Source: Planctomycetota bacterium (GTDB taxonomy: Bacteria; Planctomycetota; Planctomycetia; Pirellulales; Pirellulaceae). Taken from it: a stretch of 64,000 bases of DNA. Position numbers and translations under genes: made by a program. Below the pieces are notes generated by a model. The model ran no database searches and was not told where the DNA came from. It saw only the letters and a list, made by a program, of their open reading frames with translations. This document shows positions 54,608 through 58,080 of this stretch, piece after piece (positions within the stretch are counted from its first letter, which is position 1; each line of letters begins with the position of its first letter). The stretch spans positions 32,395 through 96,394 of the forward strand of contig JAPLNI010000026.1 in assembly GCA_026692865.1 (NCBI GenBank), read 5' to 3'.

Positions 54608-55060
54608 CTACGCGGACGGGACGACTGTTGCTGCGGCTTTGGGTGGGGCATTTGAGAGAGGAATCTCGCGGCCGTCGTACTTTCGGATAATTATGGTGTC
54701 TAGGTTAAACTCTGGTCGCTGGGAGGTTACTTGGTCAACGATCAATTGCCCTTTATCTTTACTCCCAACGACTTCGAACAAGATCACGTCTGGATTACCG
54801 TTTTCCAGTGTCGCTGAATAACTCATCGAACAACTTTGAAGCTCGCCAAGTTCAGCTTCGATGACTGGATGACCTTTCAGTTGTCGCTGTAGGTCAGCTC
54901 CCAAATAGTTTGGAGCTACCGACGCAAACATAAACACCAGACTGCTAATGATTAAAAATAAAACCGCCGCAACAATCCCGATTCGACGGATCATGGCATT
55001 TTGCGAGCCAAATGTCGATTTGCTGGAGGTGGTTTGGGAGTCTGAGGTAGAGTCGTTCAT
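54608..55060 (-). CDS. Single-span membrane protein, COA1-like
   Basis: The product has 150 residues. A cytoplasmic Ser/Thr-rich N-terminus is followed by one span (IGIVAAVLFLIISSLVFMFA). The outer domain then has LKGHPVIEAELGELQSCSMS and DVILFEVVGSKDKGQLIV, the pattern of small COA1/cytochrome-oxidase-assembly-like proteins. A Pro/Ala-rich tail ends it. Function is inferred only weakly. Confidence 0.55.
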   Translation of the reverse strand: MNDSTSDSQTTSSKSTFGSQNAMIRRIGIVAAVLFLIISSLVFMFASVAPNYLGADLQRQLKGHPVIEAELGELQSCSMSYSATLENGNPDVILFEVVGSKDKGQLIVDQVTSQRPEFNLDTIIIRKYDGREIPLSNAPPKAAATVVPSA

Positions 55061-55304
55061 TGTTTTTTATTCGGGACGCTGAAGGATTAAAAAGAGTCTG
55101 CTAGTAAACTAGCTTGTTGGATACAAATTGATTTAAGGAAAGCTCTGAAAGTAAACTATCGCGACAAGGCTTTCTTACAGTGGAGTCGGCTTTCCCGCAC
55201 GCCTCCATTTCGATAGGAGTCTAGACTTTATTATATACGGAAGTCATCTACAGGGGCGAATCGGCGGGATATAACGTGCAGGTTCTATTTTTAAACCAAC
55301 AGTC

Positions 55305-55877
55305 TTACATTAAGGAACCACCACTCGAGGAAGACAACTCAGATCTCGGCTCAAGTGTTTTCACAAATTCCTGAACAACCTTGCGCAGATAAATTTCTGG
55401 ATGAACGTGAGGTCGCACTTCAAGTAGACGCTGCTGAGCTAGCTCGGGTTTCATGTGGCGGTATTTGACCAGCCAGCACAAAACGATCGTCGCACTTCTG
55501 GCGCGACCTGCCTTGCAATGCACGTAAACTTTCGACGGAGTTGAAGCGGTTGGTCGCAATCGAGCTTGAATGTATTCAACGCCCTGGATGACCTGCTTGA
55601 GCGTCGGCGCTTGGAAGTCTGTCGTCGGTAGCCAGAGTTGATCGATCGAGTGCTTCTCGTATAAGTCAACTGGCCCGCGATATTCCTCGCACATATTGAC
55701 CACAGCGTTAACACGCATCTGTGCAAAATTCGCAACATCGCGACGCAGCGGCCGCGCCCCCAGCAAAAGCCCCGGCTCCACCTCATCCCACCAATTCCGT
55801 GCCTTCAAAACACGGCCCAGAAGCAAATTCCAAGCGTACGTGGGCAGAAAAACAAGTCGTGCAAGTTGTGGGTTCAA
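55305..55877 (-). CDS. Dual-specificity phosphatase, PTPMT1-like
   Basis: The product has 190 residues. NWWDEVEPGLLLGARPLRRD is the PTPMT1 opening, NMCEEYRGPVDLYEK follows, and YVHCKAGRARSATIVLCWLV carries the CX5R catalytic loop (Cys-Lys-Ala-Gly-Arg-Ala-Arg). PTPMT1 relatives dephosphorylate phosphatidylglycerophosphate, so a role in phospholipid synthesis is plausible. The start is TTG at 55877; no in-frame ATG is available that retains the N-terminal helix. Confidence 0.85.
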   Translation of the reverse strand: MNPQLARLVFLPTYAWNLLLGRVLKARNWWDEVEPGLLLGARPLRRDVANFAQMRVNAVVNMCEEYRGPVDLYEKHSIDQLWLPTTDFQAPTLKQVIQGVEYIQARLRPTASTPSKVYVHCKAGRARSATIVLCWLVKYRHMKPELAQQRLLEVRPHVHPEIYLRKVVQEFVKTLEPRSELSSSSGGSLM

Positions 55878-56033
55878 AATGCCAGCGATAATTAGGTAGA
55901 TGTTGCAAAAATGAAAAGCCCGTGAAAGCCAATAAAAGAAACTGCTTCGCTCTTGAATTCACTGACTTGACGAGATTATATTATGATATCGGGTTGCGTG
56001 ACGCACACGCAACAGGGTCGTTTCAGTGCCGCA

Positions 56034-56084
56034 ATGATCCATTCTTGGCTCAAGCGTGATGGTTGCGGTCGGATTCGTTTTTGA
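56034..56084 (+). CDS. Possible 16-residue peptide in the structured RNA
   Basis: ATG ATC CAT TCT TGG CTC ... TGA encodes MIHSWLKRDGCGRIRF. No SD precedes it, and its stop overlaps the SD of the next small ORF by a base or two, which would allow coupling. Support is only positional. Confidence 0.25.
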   Translation: MIHSWLKRDGCGRIRF

Positions 56085-56098
56085 GAGGAGGTGATTAG

Positions 56099-56140
56099 GT
56101 GAATAGTTTCTTTACCGGCCAATGGGGTGGCGATTCTTAG
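56099..56140 (+). CDS. Possible 13-residue peptide with near-perfect Shine-Dalgarno
   Basis: GTG AAT AGT TTC TTT ACC GGC ... TAG encodes MNSFFTGQWGGDS. AGGAGG ends 7 nt before the GTG (56086-56091), and the surrounding GAGGAGGTGATTAG closely matches the full anti-SD complement. Such a strong site is unusual compared with other starts in this window. The same bases can pair with the downstream CTAACCTCCTTTC (56189-56201), which would mask the site. Confidence 0.4.
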   Translation: MNSFFTGQWGGDS

Positions 56141-56225
56141 AACGCCGGCGGGCTGTCTAAGGTTACAGCCGTCACTCCAACTCGTAGGCTAACCTCCTTT
56201 CGAGCTCCTACGAGAGACTTAGTCG

Positions 56226-56264
56226 CCCGGGTCTGCGTGTTATATCTCAGACCCGGGTTTTTTT
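56226..56264 (+). terminator. Intrinsic terminator of the structured RNA
   Basis: A perfect 10-bp GC-rich stem, CCCGGGTCTG / CAGACCCGGG, has a 12-nt loop and seven T residues immediately after. It is the clearest terminator in the window and marks the 3' end of the plus-strand RNA. Confidence 0.92.
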
Positions 56265-56400
56265 ATGGACAGGGAGCAGGTAGGCAGTTGGCAGATTGCT
56301 TTCGATGAGCGGCGTCGGCTTAGGCATATCAGCTCTGTCGTCGGCTAAATGCGTACAGTTGAAAGCACAACTCGATGGCGTTCGCCGAAAAGTGTTGAGT

Positions 56401-58080
56401 TTACTCGTCGGTTACGCAGCCTTCGGAGGCGCTCTTAACATTCTTGATGTACTTGTAGAGCGTTCCGCGAGTTGCCTTCAGTGGAGGAGCGACCCACGCA
56501 GAGAGTCGCTTTGCCATCTCTTCATCGCTGACAGCAACGGCTAGCAAGTTTCTGTTCGCATCCAACGTCACGATGTCACCATCTTGAACTAAAGCAATCG
56601 GCCCACCGACCTGGGCTTCGGGCGTAACGTGTCCAACGATGAATCCGTGACTACCGCCCGAAAAACGCCCGTCGGTTATCAGGGCAACGTCGGCTCCCAT
56701 ACCGGCTCCCATAATGGCCGATGTGGGTGTCAGCATCTCCGGCATCCCCGGTCCTCCCTTGGGGCCTTCATATCGAATAATGATGACGTCTCCTTTTTGA
56801 ATTTGACCGTCTTCAAGTGACTTGATCATCAATTCTTCACTGTCAAAACAACGTGCTGGACCGGAGAACTCCAGCCCTTCTTTGCCAGTGATCTTAGCAA
56901 CCGAACCCTCCGGAGCCAAATTCCCACGAAGGATCTGAATGTGACCAGTTTCTTTAATCGGCGATTCGATCGGCTGGACGATTTTTTGACCAGGCTTCAG
57001 CCCAGGAAGATCCGCAAGATTTTCTGCCAGCGTCTTGCCCGTACACGTTAAGCAAGATCCGTCGAGAAGACCTTTGCTGAGCAGGTACTTCATCACAGCT
57101 GGCGTACCACCAATCGAATGTAAGTCTTCTTGGACAAATTTACCACTCGGCTTAAGGTCCGCCAAAAACGGGATTCGATTGCTAACGCTTTGGATGTCAT
57201 CCAAAGTGAGCGGGATGTCAACACTACGCGCCATGGCAATCAAATGCAGTACCGCGTTGGTGCTACCACCAAGGGCAATAACAACGACCATCGCGTTCTC
57301 GAAAGCGGCCCGAGTCATGATGTCGCGAGGCTTGATATCCAGCTTCATCAAATTCAAGACGGCTGCAGCAGCGCGATGACACTCATCTTTCTTGGCGGGA
57401 TCTTCGGCTGGAATCGAAGCAGAATAAGGCAACGACATCCCCAAGGCCTCGATCGCTGAAGCCATAGTATTCGCAGTATACATTCCACCGCATGCACCCG
57501 CGCCGGGGCACGAGTTCTTTACGATTTCCGAGCGTGTCTTTTCGTCGATACGACCCGCGATGTATTCACCGTAACATTGGAAAGCCGAAACAATATCCAG
57601 GCTCGTTCCATTCCACTTACCAGCACGAATCGTTCCGCCATAAACCATCAATGCAGGTCGATTCAACCGGCCCATCGCAATCAAACATCCGGGCATGTTC
57701 TTATCGCATCCGGGCAAAGCGATCAGCGCATCGTACCATTGTGCTCCCATGATGGTCTCGATCGAATCGGCAATCAAATCACGCGACTGAAGCGAGAACG
57801 ACATCCCTTCGGTCCCCATCGAAATACCATCGCTCACACCAATCGTGTTGAATCGCATTCCAACCAGCCCGATTTCAACAACCGCCTTTTTTACCTCGGC
57901 AGCCAAATCGAGAAGGTGCATATTGCATGTGTTTCCCTCGTACCAAACGCTACCGATACCGACTTGCCCTTTATTCATGTCTTCGACCGTCATCCCCGTG
58001 CCGTAGAGCATCGCTTGCGAGGCGCCTTGGCTTTTGGGTTGAGTAATGCGGGAGCTGATTGGATTCAAGGGCTTATTCAT
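56401..58080 (-). CDS. ilvD: Dihydroxy-acid dehydratase
   Basis: It dehydrates dihydroxy acids to the 2-keto precursors of valine, leucine and isoleucine. The product has 559 residues. [20 protein letters not shown] and [20 protein letters not shown] contain iron-sulphur cysteines, and [20 protein letters not shown] a third. [19 protein letters not shown] and [20 protein letters not shown] are further signatures. ATG 58080 ([15 protein letters not shown]) is chosen; the frame is open a further 51 residues upstream without family features. Confidence 0.96.

Follow-up and report, generated by a model that had tools for sequence, protein, structure and literature searches.

What would an RNA do that carries a strong Shine-Dalgarno (SD) sequence, a reading frame of 13 codons and a terminator, and that is followed by no gene? 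The question is raised by a locus in a 64-kb stretch of planctomycete DNA (hereafter the window), where the original prediction had seen a structured RNA with a loop copying the 3′ tail of 16S rRNA. All of the predicted parts are present where they had been placed (Table 1): hairpins, SD, 13-codon frame, terminator and the loop ACCTCCTTTC. The accompanying claim that no gene follows also held: both flanking genes, for a dual-specificity phosphatase and ilvD, lie on the − strand, no + strand gene is found close downstream, and the sole listed + ORF (56296-56544) overlaps the opposite-strand ilvD. A 150-aa ORF adjoining the phosphatase gene (54608-55060, − strand) had no Pfam match at E ≤ 0.001.

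Table 1. Features of the RNA locus (window coordinates)
Feature	Position	Strand	Basis or remark
Unnamed RNA family member	55993-56264	+	about 270 nt
Promoter-like site TTCACT, 18 nt, TATGAT	55958-55987	+	promoter scan
H1, 5′ hairpin GTTGCGTG-ACGCA-CACGCAAC	55993-56013	+	fold, relatives
H1b, second 5′ hairpin	56028-56069	+	predicted from fold alone
Extended SD AGGAGGTGAT, 10 nt complementary to 16S tail	56086-56095	+	sequence, alignments
Mini-ORF (MNSFFTGQWGGDS), GTG start at 56099, 13 codons plus TAG	56099-56140	+	
P1 5′ strand GGGGTGGC, within ORF	56124-56131	+	partner 56171-56178
Stem CTTAGA/TCTAAG including stop codon, enclosing H2 GCC-GGCG-GGC	56136-56161	+	H2 loop 56147-56150
P1 3′ strand GTCACTCC	56171-56178	+	fold, covariation
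H3 hairpin, loop with ACCTCCTTTC at 56192-56201	56181-56214	+	lineage-specific
Intrinsic terminator: G+C-rich 10-bp stem, then T run	56226-56264	+	sequence, fold

The locus and its parts

A 284-nt stretch at this locus folded better than 200 of 200 shuffled sequences (z −3.72), and in the minimum-energy fold predicted for the window the SD is paired with the anti-SD loop of H3. A terminator scan listed none at the locus, though a terminator-like stem and T run are present; the scan probably missed it because of a loop longer than 8 nt, and the terminator was also read by eye in printed homologue copies. The locus stands above chance level because homologues and covariation exist (see below), and we regard it as virtually certain that the RNA family is real. 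As far as sequence can tell, it looks like an uncatalogued free-standing small RNA gene of the Planctomycetota.

The comparison with known families supports the view that the RNA is uncatalogued. Rfam 15 gave no match in the window at gathering score, the best sub-threshold match within 55880-56400 reaching 15.5 bits against a cut-off of 49.5, and on the loci of 20 relatives it gave tRNA only. No description of the mini-ORF RNA turned up in the literature searched; the Rfam comparison proposed with the original prediction produced no match, and the name 'Rhopi-1' given there was not found in the literature searched. By its table line, the Rhodopirellula-1 motif (Weinberg et al. 2010, PMC2864571) is likewise a candidate structured RNA from Planctomycetes; the line reads '? 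y ?; Proteobacteria, Planctomycetes', without Rfam accession, and its 'y' is taken to mean cis-regulatory.

The upstream parts recur in the relatives described below (n = 117-119 for these counts, loci at contig ends being excluded). A promoter-like TTG...−10-like signal was found in 75 of 117 copies from the class of the source genome (9.2 expected from shuffles), and a hairpin of the H1 type, having an ACG loop, in 92 of 117 copies within the class, where 2.1 are expected, and in 13 of 22 from outside it, where 0.7 are expected. Several outside-class copies (e.g. L342, L354, L356, L357 and L359) have a GACG loop in both H1 and H2, as if a single protein bound the 5′ and the post-stop hairpin.

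Spread through the Planctomycetota

A DNA search of 60 genomes, the source genome included, gave matches in nine genomes at E ≤ 0.01, at ten places; a 23-base match lying away from SD and ORF (L009) was treated as chance and excluded. A sequence model built from eight sequences (R1) found nearly always one match per genome, in 161 of 199 genomes of the taxonomic family and 178 of 396 of the order (both at E ≤ 0.01) and in 110 of 248 of the class (E ≤ 0.001). The remaining 38 family, 218 order and 138 class genomes gave no R1 match; divergence, assembly gaps and scoring limits may account for some of them and true absence for others. Two R1 matches each were seen in genomes G065, G070, G108 and G138; in G138 each lies at a contig end, and the pair may be an assembly duplicate.

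A first R1 search across the phylum matched 22 of 294 genomes, 20 of them in the class. With a structural model (R2), 77 of 294 phylum genomes matched at E ≤ 0.05, with a single place in each, and 53 of 294 at E ≤ 0.001, of which 33 lie outside the class. The 20 unrelated genomes used as a control were those matching a DNA pattern scan, taken as chance and therefore a non-random draw; R2 matched none of them at E ≤ 0.001 and two at E ≤ 0.05 (best 0.015). The E-values of a third model (R3) were unreliable, since 13 of the 20 unrelated genomes matched at E ≤ 0.05 with a best score of 30.8 bits, and its 223 of 292 phylum genomes at E ≤ 0.01, many with two or three matches, were not relied on; at 35 bits or more, above the control best, it matched 95 of 292 phylum genomes, among which 63 lie outside the class. 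Among the matches listed by the contig pattern scan, planctomycetes were mixed with chance matches in other phyla: R2 confirmed seven planctomycete records (63-88 bits) and gave nothing above 9.9 bits for five records of other groups. Named carriers are Rhodopirellula maiorica, R. rubra, Bythopirellula polymerisocia, Adhaeretor mobilis, Candidatus Laterigemmans baculatus, Planctomycetes bacterium CA13 and one Rubripirellula MAG. Judged by these models, the RNA family is spread through the Planctomycetota, further taxonomic families included, and the motif search in related genomes suggested with the original prediction has thus led to a widespread family; most genomes outside the class remained unmatched, and distant copies escape the models.

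The 140 copies that we read comprise the window, 79 others, 40 from other taxonomic families, of which two fall outside the class, and a further 20 outside-class copies selected among R2 matches of E ≤ 0.0021. No use was made of L118, a 100-base filler region.

We inspected 80 loci with flanks of up to 3 kb on both sides; the most frequent neighbour cluster occurred at seven of them, all of one taxonomic family. The lack of a conserved neighbour speaks for a trans-acting or housekeeping RNA rather than a leader. An ORF, hairpins and a terminator are the usual anatomy of a leader-peptide attenuator acting on a downstream gene, and in one locus the start of uppP (BacA) lies about 0.26 kb past the start of the core; as the next gene in the window is on the opposite strand and the downstream cluster reaches at most 7 of 80 loci, we give this explanation almost no credence, and the attenuator was rejected because no same-direction downstream gene is conserved.

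Two kinds of neighbour recur locally. Of the 10 loci of family f7, 6 (6 of 80 overall) have an opposite-strand RtcB RNA ligase cluster gene upstream (L103, 759-2156, − strand; L104, L105, L106, L107 and L129; Pfam checked on L103). RtcB re-ligates 16S 3′ ends, and its presence may be linked to the anti-SD tail or may simply reflect local synteny. Six of 80 loci have a BacA/UppP-cluster gene 0.3-2.2 kb downstream (L120, 1922-2812, − strand; L087, 3287-5393, + strand; L066, L067, L090 and L123; Pfam checked for L120 and L087), and an undecaprenyl-phosphate translocase-like (VCA0040-like) gene is near five loci, a set that overlaps the BacA/UppP loci.

Conserved fold, reading frame and SD

The core of the family, as it emerges from comparison of the copies, is a fold wrapped around the end of a short reading frame. 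H2 is a hairpin just past the stop codon, with a GGCG or GACG loop in most copies, and P1 pairs the 3′ part of the frame with RNA past H2. We aligned the window with 45 of 91 listed loci chosen by eye for spread (46 rows; 100 of 120 copies had parsed), and we aligned 31 of 35 listed loci phylum-wide (31 rows; L358, L064, L109 and L058 omitted, L349 re-cut). In the 46 rows, 92.5% of the P1 and H2 cells are paired (94.6% for P1 alone), compared with 27-60% in slid versions. Changes on both sides occur at 10 of 13 pairs of P1 and H2, with a shuffle mean of 4.3 and none of 500 shuffles as high, and at 7 of 7 pairs of H2; in the 31 phylum-wide rows 5 of 5 H2 pairs covary, with 27 double-changed cells compared with 7.7. 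P1 is weaker when sequences are taken singly, reaching p ≤ 0.05 in only 26 of 118 copies of the class and 8 of 22 outside. The structure is, on the evidence of these alignments, under selection.

The frame is conserved with the fold. Among 120 copies, the start codon is GTG in 94, TTG in 24 and ATG in 2, and the stop codon is TAG in 49, TGA in 42 and TAA in 29; the frame, taken by the parser from the first start yielding at least 8 codons, has 13 codons in 77 copies, 14 in 21 and mostly 9-15 (L050 is an outlier for which an alternative start was picked). In 118 of 120 copies the closing base of the H2 loop lies 4-11 nt past the stop; each of the other two frames gives 10 of 120. Defined more strictly, the H2 loop starts 5-12 nt past the stop in 112 of 118 class copies and 4-12 nt past it in 20 of 22 outside. 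The exchange of three stop codons at one place argues for translation, and the frame is very probably translated. Homologues, covariation and stop position thus all agree with the original proposal of a structured RNA with a strong SD and a tiny ORF.

If the frame is translated, its product could be the output of the locus. A micropeptide gene, in which the RNA fold merely regulates synthesis of the short product, would fit the recognisable consensus M(E/D/N)YxCTSQRGGxx found in much of the class, where length changes are in-frame and codons 8-10 of the 13-codon frames encode Q in 61, R in 71 and G in 79 of 83. However, in other parts of the phylum the peptides diverge (MCSSDNQRRLA, MIDCTSRSGLR, MSDCTKGLHS and MMIVRGSIRRWVR), whereas the SD, the stop position and the post-stop hairpin remain. 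Further, the uniform codons include those that overlap P1 (codons 9-11), and third bases are uniform as well (Ser-7 is AGC in 57 of 59 and Gly-10 is GGT in 73 of 79), which points to conservation at the nucleotide level. We therefore consider a micropeptide gene unlikely. Because the stop position is kept while the peptides drift, the act of translation seems to be selected more than its product: the passage and stopping of a ribosome would be what is conserved, and the peptide less so.

The SD is the third constant element. AGGAGGTGAT has a single exact copy in the window, and at one mismatch there are 3 copies compared with 2.7 expected; as this number is near expectation, the SD alone is unsurprising. 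The 16S 3′ tail of the source genome reads GGATCACCTCCTTTCT, and contiguous complementarity of 10-16 nt to the 16S tail is found in 122 of 140 copies (102 of 118 in the class and 20 of 22 outside), the window having 10; AAAGGAGGTGATC is present in 43 of 140. The SD is near-invariant in both the 46- and the 31-row alignment, and the start codon lies 6-7 nt past GGAGG in 115 of 120 copies. This very strong SD is joined almost exclusively to weak starts, GTG or TTG in 118 of 120 copies. Planctomycetes are listed, based on one species, among the phyla with small fractions of SD genes (PMC5397173), and a long conserved SD is odd in a phylum that reportedly has few such genes.

The anti-SD loop and a possible role at the ribosome

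The loop of H3 in the window equals ten bases of the organism's own 16S tail and is complementary to the SD. In the window, the fold with the SD masked has a predicted energy of −110.9 kcal/mol and the fold with the SD open −103.1 kcal/mol, the masked fold being lower by 7.8. Of 120 copies, 34 contain the motif GATCACC in the 3′ region (0.7 expected; reversed and complementary control words gave 0), and none of the 22 copies outside the class does. By partition function, 47 of 118 class copies and 3 of 22 others have an SD core predicted to pair with the 3′ region (P > 0.5); the complementarity of H3 to its own SD exceeds that of shuffled regions in only 34 of 118 copies. Against its own 3′ region a copy's own SD scores 18.27 compared with 17.32 for swapped SDs (permutation p 0.0002, with relatedness uncontrolled), and nine copies with a GTGTT SD score below average for their own partner (16.2 compared with 16.96). 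An earlier test of SD and 3′ region, which used a badly placed fixed window, gave 10 of 120 copies at p < 0.05 (Fisher p 0.025).

These results bear on the proposal that the RNA switches between an open and a masked SD. Type I toxin mRNAs and RNA thermometers form a class of SD-masked mRNAs, and the mini-ORF RNA resembles them in having an anti-SD segment able to pair with the SD; it differs in that masking is lineage-restricted and the product is a short, polar, drifting peptide. A cis latch serving mainly to open or mask the SD in response to temperature, ions, a ligand or the ribosome level would account for the fold of the window, for the excess of GATCACC and, with relatedness uncontrolled, for the advantage of own over swapped SDs, but masking is predicted for a part of the class and few copies outside it, beyond the conserved core, and the GTGTT copies run counter to it. 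Such a latch is quite unlikely to be the general function. For the window and some of the class copies masking is plausible, though not for the family at large; the stems are kept in relatives, whereas the loop, which the original prediction had made central to its switch, is found in only part of the class and, as far as the compared copies tell, is a class-level add-on outside the conserved core.

The frequent reproduction of GATCACC in H3 also fits a mimic or antisense of the 16S 3′ end in ribosome assembly, in which the SD would cover the tail or the H3 loop (GGAUCACC) would bind a tail-reading factor such as Era. Era is described as recognising GAUCA after helix 45, plus the following CCUCC (PMC10582724). 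The motif is nevertheless absent from all 22 copies outside the class, no helix 45 mimic was seen, no assembly gene is among the conserved neighbours, and the conservation of start and stop would be left unexplained. We regard this role as improbable.

Which known RNA comes nearest? tmRNA (RF00023) is likewise a widespread RNA with its own short reading frame that engages the ribosome, but the mini-ORF RNA differs in having an SD and a start codon. It is not tmRNA: there was no RF00023 match in the window, ARAGORN found none at 55000-57000, and the true tmRNA of the source genome lies on another contig (9 of 13 genomes searched score above the RF00023 cut-off). Functionally, the CreT RNAs of CRISPR-associated CreTA modules come nearest: they depend on a strong SD and a mini-ORF and not on the peptide (PMC10097628). 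The mini-ORF RNA shares the strong SD and the conserved mini-ORF, but differs in being phylum-wide, nearly always single-copy and about 270 nt long, with covarying stems and a post-stop hairpin. That it is itself a toxin RNA, either CreT-like or of type I, whose antidote went unseen would agree with the peptide-independent action described for CreT RNAs, which likewise combine a strong SD and a mini-ORF (PMC10097628); its wide, nearly always single-copy spread in varying gene contexts is unlike that of addiction modules and, as the peptides are by eye non-hydrophobic, makes this reading very improbable. A type I toxin mRNA finds no support in the peptides, which are by eye polar and rich in Cys, Ser, Gln and Arg, with no small hydrophobic peptide among them.

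We put at about 45% the probability that the RNA acts by engaging ribosomes, its fold being toggled by translation; transcription, translation and a downstream effect of the RNA are here what we infer. The SD would bind a 30S subunit through 10-16 nt of the 16S 3′ tail, initiation would take place at a weak GTG or TTG, and 9-15 codons would be translated up to a stop just ahead of the conserved hairpin. The P1/H2 stem is predicted to take in the 3′ part of the frame (in the window, the stop codon too); passage of a ribosome would open the RNA and absence of ribosomes would close it. The RNA would thus sense ribosomes and perhaps hold them, and its fold would report how free initiation is. In part of the class copies there may be an added lock, the loop that mimics the 16S tail and masks the SD.

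Because the RNA failed the defining tests that were applied for Rfam families, for tmRNA, for attenuators and for mRNAs of type I toxins, this may be a new class of RNA, with a mechanism that may be of a known type. A bolder form of the ribosome-engaging reading, to which we give a small chance, is that the Planctomycetota possess a mini-mRNA made for ribosomes, an essential or near-essential RNA that catches 30S subunits by the greater part of their 16S tail, offers a token frame and stops them at a hairpin, and so tests, counts or parks ribosomes. If this is true, it would stand beside tmRNA as a second widespread bacterial RNA with a built-in reading frame. Overall, a nearly always single-copy RNA that has been retained across many lineages of a large phylum probably has an important role, and it would separate translation as a signal from translation for a product.
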